Both the position numbers and the translations under genes were made by a program. This document shows positions 4,799 through 64,000 of a DNA stretch of 64,000 nt, in pieces. Source of the DNA: Caenorhabditis elegans (taxonomy: Eukaryota; Nematoda; Chromadorea; Rhabditida; Rhabditidae); assembly GCF_000002985.6 (NCBI RefSeq), contig NC_003284.9, forward strand, positions 15,624,001 to 15,688,000, given 5' to 3'. The number at the start of each line of letters is the position of its first letter. Position 1 is the stretch's first letter. The notes under the pieces were generated by a model. The model did no database searches. It saw only the letters and a list, made by a program, of their open reading frames with translations, and was not told where the DNA came from.

Positions 4799-5777
4799 TT
4801 ACGAAGTTCCTTGTTTCGGTGGGGAAGGTCCTGCAATTTTTTTAAAACATTTTTGCGGTAATGGTTTTGGGGAAACAATTTTAAAAAAAAGCTCCCTTTT
4901 TATGAAAAAATATCGAAACATTTTTTCACGTAAAAAATGTTGGCTCTTGACAACAAAAGTTTAGGGGATGTTATGATAAATGCGCAGCCGACATATAAAG
5001 GGTCGTGATGAATCTTGACTTCCTTAACAATTTTTCTCAAAAATATAAAATTTATGATTGCCTAACCACACCATGGACAAGAGTTTTGAAGAGTAAAGTA
5101 ACATTGGAACGGTCATTTTGATTTTTAAAATCACTTTTTGAACACTTCTCACAAAAAAGTTATGACGGCTCGACAAATTACCTAAAAATTGATAAAATTG
5201 AAATTTGACCAACGTCCATCGACTGTAAAATACCTGAATGAAGTTGAAAACGCAAGATAGTTGCATTGTATATATACTCAAAATTTGACGGTGATTAAAA
5301 AAATTGTTTCCAGCCGCTACGACATTGACAAGTCGGTCAAATTTCAAATTTTAACTAATTTTAGGCCATTTTTTGAGCCGTCATAACTTTTTTTTGAGAA
5401 GTTTTCAAGAAGTTTCATTATGAAATTCGGCGTTTCCAGACAATTTTGAGTCTAACAAAGCAATTTAAAAAAAAAATCGACTACACCACCTTTAATACTC
5501 TACTCAACACTTCAAAAATAACCCCTCAAAATATATACCTGGTTGGTTTTGTGACTCTGCCGTCTGATCACAGTGAGCCTTCATGTCTGACATTCGCTCC
5601 GCAAGTTTTGCTGCATCAGGATCGTTGATCTCGACCTGAAAAAAACATCTTTAGCACATCTTATTGAATCATGTGCCTGATGAGCGCAAAAAATGATCCC
5701 ATTATGGCTCTCGAATTTCAATTTTTCCCTGGTAACTCTATACTAGACATGTTTGTGGCGTAGGGGAGTAGCAGCAG

Positions 5778-5830
<53 letters not shown>

Positions 5831-6416
5831 TTTGACGTCACGATAAATTTTTTTGGAAGAAAAAAGTGATAAGAAAATCAAATTTGTTGCTCTCTTGACG
5901 AAGTCTTCGACAAAGTTGGAATAGAGATTGATTTAGAGATAAAACTTTTTTTTCCTTATTTTTTTGGCACCTCATGCTTCTAAAAATGTAAAAATCCTGA
6001 CTTTTCGAAAAGGATGCGAACCAGCGAAAAAAAGGGAAAAAGATTGGAAGTAAAATCTAAAAACTACTGAACTGGAAAATTTACGTTACGTGTCGTTTTA
6101 TGGTCACAATTTGGAAAAAACCTTGAAAAAAAAAACTCCAAAGAATTTTCCGAAATATAGAAAAATTGGAAACGTTGTACTACAAAACTCAGGCGCGGCA
6201 CTTGTGTGTTATCAGGTGGTTTTGTCGTGCACATGAAGGTTTCGGTTTCAGGTTTCACGTAAACGACGTGTGCATACAAAGGGCGTGGGCTCAATGAGCA
6301 GAACCATAAATGACTTGGAGGCCCACCTCAATCTCCGGAAGTGCGTTACGGCGACCAGCTCGAGCCGATGTTGCGAAGTATTCGAGCTCTCTTTCTGGCA
6401 CTTCGAGTTCGCCCAT
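4799..6416 (-). CDS. cAMP-dependent protein kinase inhibitor (PKI family)
   Basis: Three exons on the minus strand: 6416-6327, 5635-5539 and 4830-4799, joined in phases 0 and 1, give 72 residues, the usual size for PKI. Residues 13-29 read EYFATSARAGRRNALPE. This is the PKI inhibitory segment: an amphipathic start with Tyr and Phe, then the pseudosubstrate R-x-G-R-R-N-A, where Ala replaces the phosphorylated Ser. Known members bind the PKA catalytic subunit tightly, block it, and carry it out of the nucleus through a hydrophobic export signal. Residues 39-47 (AAKLAERMS) occupy the place of that signal but are less hydrophobic. The C-terminal tail (GPSPPKQGTS) comes from the short last exon. 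The ATG lies 24 bases after a TTTTTTCAG acceptor (6443-6441), so the 5' end is either trans-spliced or has an upstream non-coding exon. The first intron is 691 bases and the second 708 bases. Confidence 0.85.
5095..5495. repeat. Palindromic element, family B, in PKI intron 2
   Basis: The right end reads ATCGACTACACCACCTTTAA. Internally it has the shared blocks TTATGACGGCTC, GACCAACGTCCATCGAC and CAGCCGCTACGACATTGACA. Other copies are at 24807-25358, 52050-52680, 53876-54435 and 61089-61646, with a partial copy at 21008-21338. The left end is degraded. Confidence 0.75.
5781..5828. repeat. (CA)n microsatellite
   Basis: Twenty-four CA units follow three GCA units. The tract lies in the first intron of the PKI gene. 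Confidence 0.95.
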
Positions 6417-6440
6417 TTTTGAATTTTTTTGAGTTTGAGG

Positions 6441-7565
6441 CTGAAAAAATGAAAATTTAATTTTTAAATTAATACAACTAGTTTTGAAAAAAAATTGGAT
6501 TGCGAAATAATAGTTAGTAATAGGTAGTAGAAAAATGAAACACAACAAAATTCAAAAGGAAAAGTTCAAATAGGTATTTGATTTCTAATTTTGAATATTT
6601 CAAGCTAAATGCTTTAATCATCAAATTTTATGCAAAATTAACTATCACCTGCAAAATATATAAAATAATATTCTCAAAGTGATGAAAAATTAGGTTTGAA
6701 ATTGGAATATTACGTTTTTAAAAAACCTTATTAGTTTATGCATTCTGCTTTTAAAAAAATCTAATTAGGTAGCCCAGACAGAACGGAGATTGCACAAAAA
6801 AAGTTAAAAGAAAAACCAACTAATGAGACATAGGGGCGCAAAGCAAAGCGAAGAAAAAAGTCATGGCGGTTGGTTGACAAGGGGGAGGGCAGTGAAAAGG
6901 GAGGCGGGGAAGAAGAAGAAAAAAGAGAAGGGAGGCATGTAGTGAATATTGAGAAGAGAAGGACGAAGCATTGGAGGGCGGAGAAGTAGAAGGAAATGGG
7001 AGGAGAAGAGGAGTGGAATTAGAAGAAAAAGGAAGGAATAGGGGGAGAAGGATGGAAAAACCGAGGGCTTTGGTCCGGCAACATGCAAAAATAAGTGTCG
7101 ATAGAAGAGGCATTGTGTTGCTCCAAAACTCATTTCGAGACTCGAAATTGAACTTTTTGAGCTCACGGAAAGCACGACATTTTCAATAAAAAATGAATTT
7201 TGCAGAATAGCAAGGAAATATTTAATTCATCATAAAGTGAGTTAGTTAAAATGTAAATTGGCAGCTATTTAGGCAAAAAACATTTTTATCGCCATTTTTA
7301 ATTGCTCTTAATAAAAGTTCTCAATAAAAATTTATATTAAAGTTTTTCCAGCTTGTCTCGGAAAAAAACCTCTATTAATTTATTTGATTTACTCAAGGAA
7401 CGCGTTTAGATTTATCAAAAATATTTTTCGTTACTTTTTTATACTTATTGTGTACTTGAGATAAAGAGATAAACAGTTAAAATATGCAAAATGGAGATCA
7501 AAATTTGTAAAAGTGATATGACCAGAACCGTTCAGTTTTAAGGCATTTTCTAAAGTTTCTCTAGT
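6441..7565. other. Upstream region of the PKI gene, purine-rich
   Basis: No coding exon was found. From about 6835 to 7060 the plus strand is strongly purine-rich (GAGG, GAAG and AAGAAG clusters), giving overlapping open frames on both strands that have no protein character. This may be part of the PKI promoter or 5' UTR region. Confidence 0.4.
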
Positions 7566-10850: not shown

Positions 10851-11129
10851 AGGGGTGGGCGGCATACGACCTTTTCCGACGAATCGGCAAATTTGCGAAT
10901 TGCCGAAAATTTTCGGCAAATTGTGATTTTGCACTTATTTTTTTGGAAATTTCAGAATTTCAATTTCAAATGGCAAAATTAAACGCATCCAATGAATTTT
11001 CCGACATTTATTTTAAAAAATAAGCAAATTATATAAAAACCAGCCGCTGACCGCGCCTACGGCGCGGGCAACGACTGGCACCATTAAAAGTATTTGACAC
11101 ACATACACTTCCAGAATTTTCCCGATTTT

Positions 11130-11403
11130 TTTAGAAAGTTCTGGAACATTCCAGACTTTTCCCAATTTTTCTAGAAAGTTCTGGAACATTCCAGAATTTT
11201 CCCGATTTTTCTAAAAAGTTCTGGAACATTCCAGACTTTTCCCATTTTTTCTAGAAAGTTCTGGAACATTCCAGACTATTCCCAATTTTTCTAGAAAGTT
11301 CTGGAACGTTCCAGAATTTTCTCGATTTTTCTAGAAAGTTCTGGAACATTCCAGAATTTTCCCGATTTTTCTAGAAAGTTCTGGAACATTCGAGAATTTT
11401 TTT
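11130..11403. repeat. 40-bp tandem repeat carrying extended heat-shock elements
   Basis: About seven units of 40 bases. Each contains TTCTAGAAAGTTCTGGAA followed by CATTCCAGAA, i.e. alternating TTC and GAA triplets every five bases (GAA-nn-TTC-nn-GAA-nn-TTC-nn-GAA). That is the consensus binding site for trimeric heat shock factor (HSF-1). The units are separated by a TTTTCCCGATTTTT spacer. Reported Caenorhabditis Helitrons carry HSF-1 sites of this sort. Confidence 0.8.
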
Positions 11404-11447
11404 AGAAATTTCCAGAAGATTCTAGATTTCCAGAATTTTAGAATTTT

Positions 11448-11822
11448 CAGAAAATTTAAATTTCCCTCCAAACTTTTTTTCTCAGAAAATTTAAATTACC
11501 CGCCAAAATATCTTTCACAGAAAATTTAAATTTCCCTCCAAAATTTTTTTCTCAGAAAATTTAAATTACCCGCCAAAATATCTTTCACAGAAAATTTAAA
11601 TTTCCCTCCAAAATTTTTTTCTCAGAAAATTTAAATTACCCGCCAAAATATCTTTCACAGAAAATTTAAATTTCCCGCCAAAATATTTTTCTCAGAAAAT
11701 TAAAATTTCCCTCCAAAATATTTTTTTCAGAAAATTTAAATTTCCCTCCAAAATATTTTTTTCAGAAAATTTAAATTTCCCTCCAAAATATTTTTTTCAG
11801 AAAATTTAAATTTCCCGCCAAA
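11448..11822. repeat. 35-bp tandem repeat, about 10 copies
   Basis: The unit is CAGAAAATTTAAATTTCCC followed by TCCAAAATTTTTTTCT. It alternates with a variant containing TTACCCGCCAAAATATC, so the higher-order period is about 70 bases. It directly follows the heat-shock-element array. Confidence 0.85.
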
Positions 11823-11825
11823 GTT

Positions 11826-12130
11826 TTGGGTCTTACCACGGTGGGTCTCACCACGATGGGTCTCACCACGATGGGTTTCACCACGATGGGTCTCACCACG
11901 ACGGGTCTCACCACGGTGGGTCTCACCACGATGGGTCTCACCACGATGGGTCTCACCTCGATGGGTCTCACCACGGTGGGTCTCGCCACGATGGGTCTCA
12001 CCACGATGGGTCTCACCACGATGGGTCTCACCACGGTGGGTCTCGCCACGATGGGTCTCACCACGATGGGTCTTGCCACGATGGGTCTCACCGCGATGGG
12101 TCTCGCCACGATGGGTCTCGCCACGAAGAT
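11826..12130. repeat. 15-bp minisatellite, about 20 copies
   Basis: The unit is ATGGGTCTCACCACG with few substitutions. As 15 is a multiple of three, several frames stay open and translate to low-complexity repeats such as GETHR and MGLTT. These are artefacts of the period, not a gene. Confidence 0.95.
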
Positions 12131-12244
12131 CTCGCAGCAACTTTTTTTTTAAATTTTCCAGAAGGTTCTAGAACAATCCAGAATTTTCCAGAAGGTTCTG
12201 GAACGTTCTAGAATTTTCCCGAAGTTTCCAATTTCCCTTCCAAA

Positions 12245-12725
12245 GACGGAAAGTCAATTTTTCCCAAACTACAGTAATCCTATAGTACTCCTACAGTACT
12301 CCTACAGTACTACTACAGCACCCCGACCATATTCCACTACTAACCGAAAAACCTATATCTCTTCAAAAGACAAAAACACAATTTTTCCTAAACTACAGTA
12401 ATCCTACAGTACTCCTACAGTACCTCTACAGTACTACTACAGTACCCCGACCATATCCCACTACTAACTCCAAACCTATATCTCTTCAAAAGACAAAAAT
12501 TCAATTTTTCCTAAACTACAGTAATCCTACAGTACTCCTACAGTACCTCTACAGCACTACTACAGTACCCCGACCATATCCCACTACTAACCCCAAACCT
12601 ACATCTCTTCAAAAGACAAAAACACAATTTTTCCCAAACTATAGCAATCCTACCGTACTCCTACAGTACTCCTACAGTACTACTACAGTACCCCGACCAT
12701 ATTCCACTACTAACCCCAAACTAAT
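12245..12725. repeat. 120-bp tandem repeat, four copies
   Basis: Each unit contains AAACTACAGTAATCCTACAG, then several CTCCTACAGTA words, CCCCGACCATAT, CCACTACTAAC and TATCTCTTCAAAAGACAAAA. Units start near 12265, 12388, 12508 and 12628. The CTACAGTA words also occur in other Caenorhabditis repeats. Confidence 0.85.
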
Positions 12726-13344
12726 ATCCCTCCAACAGCCGAAAACGCCTTGCCTTTGTAAGCTATGACGTCACTTCTTAACAAACGGACACTATTTTTT
12801 TATATATAGGTAATGATATGTAAAAAAACGGGAAAAAATTCAAAAAGGCACAGTTTTAAGTGTTTATGTATTATAAAAAAATCCCTCTAAACATTTTCGG
12901 CAAATCTGATATCCGGCAAACTGCAAATCGGCAAACCGGCAATTTGCCGGAATTGAAAATTTCCGGCAATTCGGCAAACCGGCAAAAGAGTTCAACTCTT
13001 TTACACCGTCAAATTTTTTAACGAATTTTTTTCCCAACAAAAATTTCTTGAACGGCTGAAATTGAATTTCCAGGTTCAAAAATGTACTCGTAATATTTAA
13101 AATGAAAATTCTGCCAAAGATCCAATTTTTTTTTGGAATTTTCGCCACTGTATATATTTATTAAAAATGAATTCGACACAAAAAAACTCTCTAGAACGGT
13201 TGAAATTAAATTTCCAGGTCCAAAAATGTACCAGTAACATTTAAAAAAATTTAAACTCTTAGTTCAACTCTCCTACACCGTTTTCCCGATTAGCCGAACT
13301 TGTCGACAAGTCAATTTGCCGAACGGCAACTGCCGCCCACCCCT

Positions 13345-63861: not shown

Positions 63862-64000
63862 ACTGGAAAATTCATCTAGTGGTCTAACTTTGGAAATTCA
63901 TCTAGTGGTCTAACTCTGGAAATTCATCTAGTGGTCTAACTTTGGAAATTCATCTACTGGTCTAACTTTGGAAATTCATCTAGTGGTCTAACTCTGGAAA
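63862..64000. repeat. 26-bp tandem repeat running off the window end
   Basis: Five or more units of GGAAATTCATCTAGTGGTCT followed by AACTTT, with T/C and G/C variants. The array continues past the last base given. Confidence 0.9.

Follow-up and report, generated by a model that had tools for sequence, protein, structure and literature searches.

Clusters of heat shock elements (HSEs) in the Helitrons of Caenorhabditis elegans, the binding of HSF-1 to these clusters and the heat induction of adjacent genes have already been published (2019). PMC6927752 places 61.4% of 18,766 HSEs within Helitrons and reports that heat shock raises the HSF-1 ChIP signal at HelitronY4_CE and at four other Helitron types. 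In the 2.5 kb downstream from the bound Helitron HSEs, heat-induced genes are over-represented (PMC6927752). In N2 the gene nhr-247 shows a 254-fold induction, and in QX1211, a strain without the HelitronY4_CE copy, a 3.2-fold one that is not significant (PMC6927752). Overall, the Helitron-linked genes show lower mRNA and Pol II and, on average, more repressive histone marks, with a similar fold induction (PMC6927752). The expression of fbxa-215 falls on heat shock despite HSF-1-bound Helitrons upstream, and deleting these upstream Helitrons alters fertility at 25 C and thermotolerance (PMC12062965). Helitron1_CE is another rolling-circle element with HSEs, and it is described as HSF-1-bound and heat-shock induced (PMC6765114, PMC6927752).

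The window analyzed herein is a 64-kb stretch of C. elegans DNA (chromosome X:15,624,001-15,688,000), and a Helitron with an internal HSE array lies within it. The initial annotation of the sequence placed seven 40-base units in a transposon-like element and stated that Caenorhabditis Helitron repeats can bring genes under heat-shock control; that precedent exists and covers HelitronY4_CE (PMC6927752). Both the observation and most of its interpretation in the initial annotation are upheld here. Taken as a whole, the locus is best explained, with high confidence, as a HelitronY4_CE copy carrying an HSE satellite, at which HSF-1 would bind on heat shock with little effect on genes.

An HSF-1 binding array is defined as three or more alternating nTTCn/nGAAn pentamers. 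HSE array 1 occupies positions 11109-11403 of the window and satisfies this definition at the sequence level. It is composed of seven 40-bp units and a partial unit, with the TTC/GAA subsites in one 5-bp register. Tandem Repeats Finder reported a period of 40 with 7.3 copies and 92% matches over 11109-11400. The number of subsites in register per unit is 6, 6, 6, 6, 6, 7 and 7 of 8 possible, so that the array itself stood as annotated and the count of five or six triplets per unit was slightly too low. The 40-bp period is divisible by 10, and the register therefore carries on from one unit into the next between 11109 and 11396. At most 7 consecutive subsites of the array are intact, and a further HSE, a chain of 4 subsites in a shifted register, starts just past the array (11405-11422). 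Two sequence variants had been taken to weaken their sites. This holds for CTAAAAAGTT, in which GAA is changed to AAA and one subsite is lost; in CATTCGAGAA the change falls in the free spacer, TTCGAGAA still reads TTCnnGAA, and no subsite is lost.

A second HSE block is found at 12156-12228; counted over the whole block, 14 subsites out of 14 keep the register. Its unbroken chains are 4 subsites from 12156 and 10 subsites from 12181, and the intervening subsite is ATC. The chain of 10 is the longest unbroken HSE in the window and was absent from the initial annotation. Relatives of block 2 are present elsewhere in the genome. All 13 four-subsite sites of the window fall in array 1 (9) or block 2 (4), and six sites of six subsites were counted. 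Outside the two blocks, one three-subsite site was found, at 5404. The backward-read three-subsite pattern was found 0 times in the 64-kb window. Most of the inverted repeats listed are HSE palindromes paired with one another. At the far end of the window, a 26-bp satellite of 5.1 copies (63868-64000, 95% matches) reaches the last base.

The register of array 1 was compared with that of shuffled sequence. A single register accommodates 46 of the 59 subsites in 11109-11403; in 500 dinucleotide shuffles the average was 5.5 and the highest count 10. Genome-wide, four-subsite sites numbered 3506 versus 9 for the backward pattern, and six-subsite sites numbered 1554 versus 0. A chance or low-complexity match is rejected by these shuffles and backward-pattern controls.

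Unit conservation was examined by pooling 358 units from 31 loci, the eight units of the window included. The fourth subsite (GAT or AAT here) is broken in 94% of the units and the second in 28%. The 40-bp unit thus holds at most 7 working subsites. Conservation was 0.978 for the cores versus 0.933 for the spacers, where the core figure omits the variable second and fourth subsites, the units were picked by similarity to a consensus in which the fourth subsite is already broken, and the spacers rise to about 0.96 by hand calculation when one strongly polymorphic position is left out. Such a narrow difference in consensus-selected units, together with one of eight subsites broken in 94% of them, is what a simple satellite of TTC/GAA-like sequence, unrelated to HSF-1, could also display. 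That reading is scarcely credible against the 46 of 59 subsites in register with shuffles never above 10, the genome-wide counts of 3506 and 1554 sites against 9 and 0 backward, and the published rise of the HSF-1 ChIP signal at HelitronY4_CE upon heat shock (PMC6927752).

Judged by the number of subsites, it is plausible that the array would be a stronger HSF-1 site than most natural promoters have, as had been proposed. Greater subsite number does not mean greater activity, because in the one pair compared in PMC6927752 the Helitron gene col-88 has lower HSF-1 occupancy than hsp-70 despite more HSEs, and because the mRNA and Pol II levels of Helitron-linked genes are lower overall.

Compared with the largest arrays of the family, that of the window is small. 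The largest array seen is at V:7,916,931-7,925,021, where overlapping array matches extend across about 8 kb; in the 2 kb of it that was read (L090), 286 of 398 subsites fall in one register, and 49 units were counted. Of 19 other loci scanned, many have HSE blocks that are longer, reaching about 1.3 kb within the 3 kb of L037, and some (L034, L043) have shorter ones.

Helitrons carry a 5' TC and a 3' CTRR terminus and are inserted between A and T, with a hairpin some 10-12 nt upstream of the 3' end. The element in the window is a complete Helitron of 1777 bp on the minus strand (11040-12816), with the 5' TC at 12816 and the 3' CTGG at 11040. The edges were verified on the best 30 of 40 left-edge matches and the best 30 of 116 right-edge matches, in which the window's own copy is counted once per set. 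Every one of the 30 left edges read A|CCAG and every one of the 30 right edges GA|T, which on the minus strand corresponds to TC...CTGG between A and T. The 3' terminal hairpin (11040-11078, minus strand) has an inner 7-bp stem, and 11 nt separate the end of this stem from the 3' terminus. The minus-strand fold of 11040-11090 gave z = -5.4, and 0 of 200 shuffles folded equally well.

Tandem repeats account for about 87% of the Helitron (1555 of 1777 bases). Besides the HSE array, a 35-bp satellite of 10.7 copies is located at 11447-11822, and its HSE register is not above that of shuffles. A 15-bp satellite, TGGGTCTCACCACGA, follows at 11827-12126 in 20 copies and matches the 15-bp HelitronY4_CE repeat of PMC4039745. 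A 123-bp satellite of 4.1 copies (12237-12746) adjoins the 5' end of the Helitron. Two of the Helitron's open reading frames, one of 160 aa and one of the two of 143 aa, were searched with Pfam, and no Rep or helicase match was found in them. An autonomous Helitron was rejected on this basis, and the element is classed as non-autonomous. Helitron1_CE, in contrast, is autonomous and encodes a Rep-Helicase (PMC6765114, PMC6927752).

Two observations were made on the smaller satellites. When translated, the 15-bp satellite matches the Pfam GETHR pentapeptide repeat (11739-12167, minus strand, 8.5e-51). This suggests that the GETHR family may be partly translated Helitron satellite; one apicomplexan paper uses the term 17 times, so other sources are possible. 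The 35-bp satellite contains TTTCCCGCCAAA twice, at 11671 and 11811, a sequence that we take to resemble an E2F/EFL-1 site. EFL-1 is one of the factors for which transposon-derived regions contribute at least 20% of the binding sites (PMC8896005).

The Helitron itself splits an older outer element (10852-13343) with terminal inverted repeats GGGGTGGGCGGCA...TGCCGCCCACCCC. The outer element had 47 matches, its own included, and 14 were fetched. In 11 of the 14, the paralogue spans the insertion point with at least 20 nt unbroken on each side, as expected for a precise insertion and its empty site. In 4 of these 11 the only gap is exactly the three Helitron bases that were kept in the joined query. 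For the remaining three paralogues, two end at the junction and one (L027) goes 16 nt past it. The HSE array as a part of the outer inverted-repeat element was rejected, since 11 of the 14 fetched paralogues align across the insertion point. The proposed transposon-like element is thereby identified as a Helitron for which the two ends and an empty site are documented. The outer element has many diverged relatives, and those of its left part have 81-91% identity in long matches. Among the matches listed, the Helitron termini have 96-100% identity at the left and 93-99% at the right (long matches other than itself). Being both nested and less diverged, the Helitron is younger than the outer element.

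The family was assigned by comparison with the 40-bp and 15-bp HelitronY4_CE repeats printed in PMC4039745. Aligned with the reverse-complemented 40-bp repeat, all 7 array units agree at 37-39 of 40 positions, and all 19 of the 15-bp units checked agree with one form of the 15-bp repeat at 13-15 of 15 positions. A second comparison used the primers with which PMC6927752 genotypes the HelitronY4 insertion at nhr-247. They map once each, at V:15,320,317-15,320,334 and V:15,322,895-15,322,912, and bracket a copy with both ends of the window Helitron, 99% and 96% identical. That copy, at about V:15,320,693-15,322,823, has in common with the window copy the two termini and matches to the 40-bp HSE and 123-bp satellites. 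The two copies differ in their setting: the nhr-247 copy lies upstream of a heat-induced gene, has 96 HSEs and is missing in QX1211 (PMC6927752), whereas the window copy has seven units and no recognized gene start within 4.6 kb. At the str-96 HelitronY1A primer site (V:15,294,190), no edge was nearby among the matches listed (the best 40 of 98 and the best 40 of 153 candidates).

Satellites of 40 bp have also been described as Fam_5_40_94 (PMC9918286). Its member at III:8,344,363 is part of a HelitronY4_CE and was matched by the array search. The Fam_5_40_94 paper presents RNA-seq of four adult tissues, and the words "heat shock" occur 0 times in its main text.

The gene search was performed with Pfam on 20 of the 104 open reading frames of at least 60 aa in positions 1-24000. 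The two families above the Pfam cut-offs were PKI and GETHR, the latter from the translated 15-bp satellite; MFS_1, Sas10_Utp3, SNaCT7 and Integrin_B_tail were below the cut-off among these 20 frames. The small tandem gene pair of the initial annotation was not recognized in this search. Rfam and tRNA scans of the 64-kb window returned nothing. PKI was scored at 2.1e-06 on the open reading frame 6294-6551. The nearest recognized gene is the PKI coding stretch on the minus strand (6294-6416), which reads away from the Helitron, and given the frames searched, a transcription start, a non-coding gene or a 5' exon may lie nearer. From the PKI ATG at 6416 to the Helitron the distance is 4.6 kb, which is beyond the 2.5-kb promoter window of PMC6927752.

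The proposed mechanism starts from a non-autonomous rolling-circle HelitronY4_CE copy whose 40-bp satellite is a run of overlapping heat shock elements. By analogy with other HSE-bearing Helitrons, HSF-1 trimers would occupy the array upon heat shock and recruit Pol II, and a promoter within about 2.5 kb would become heat inducible. At the window copy, HSF-1 would be expected to bind locally, and some non-coding transcription may occur. No promoter was recognized within about 2.5 kb, and therefore little effect on genes is expected. The array may also be silent in many tissues, because genes neighboring Helitron HSEs carry more repressive marks on average. An action as enhancer of the PKI gene or of another neighbor, over a range of more than 4 kb, seems quite improbable: the array does lie upstream of the minus-strand PKI coding start, and so many HSEs might work at a distance, but the heat-induced genes scored in PMC6927752 are within 2.5 kb of the bound HSEs and the start codon here is 4.6 kb away.

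The array could also serve as something other than an enhancer. According to a review (PMC9737000, citing its reference 68), HSF-1 in heat-stressed germ cells prefers Helitrons and HSF-1 activity is repressed. The array could then act mainly as part of a large set of Helitron sites by which HSF-1 is diverted from chaperone promoters in these cells, a role that we hold to be less likely than not. The abundance of six-subsite sites, 1554 genome-wide including 6 in the window copy, is consistent with such a sink, yet 6 of 1554 are too few for this copy to matter alone.

The large arrays of the family also bear on the nuclear stress granules of HSF-1. Worm HSF-1 nuclear stress granules reform in similar places, the granule composition is described as largely unknown, and worm chromosomes are said to be without satellite repeats (PMC9737000). 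The binding sites of these granules are called unknown in PMC6453478. Judged by their sequence, the Helitron arrays are satellites of HSE type and are obvious candidates for the granule sites. The HelitronY4 40-bp HSE satellites together might form the chromatin scaffold of the worm HSF-1 stress granules, as a transposon-made counterpart of human satellite III; this is a speculative proposal that we hold to be unlikely. Human satellite III at nuclear stress bodies is a satellite bound by heat shock factor (PMC9737000, PMC6453478), and the worm arrays would be alike if they seed HSF-1 foci. The human repeats are pericentromeric (PMC9737000), and homology to the worm arrays is not claimed. In the open-licence literature searched, no localization data for worm Helitron arrays were found. 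No statement of the scaffold idea was found there either, term searches of PMC6927752 and PMC6765114 included, although the idea may have been published outside this literature; the reference list of PMC6765114 includes human satellite III papers, and its text may draw the comparison. If the proposal is true, the window copy would be a minor seed, or else a control at which no foci are seeded.

With an array small for the family and the nearest recognized gene start 4.6 kb off, the window copy looks ordinary. This makes it usable as a control for HSE arrays away from promoters: both ends and the nested empty site have been established, and within about 4.6 kb no gene start is recognized. It is one further instance of the published phenomenon of a transposon family scattering ready-made heat-shock switches, and the large arrays of this family make it testable on which DNA the worm HSF-1 stress granules assemble.
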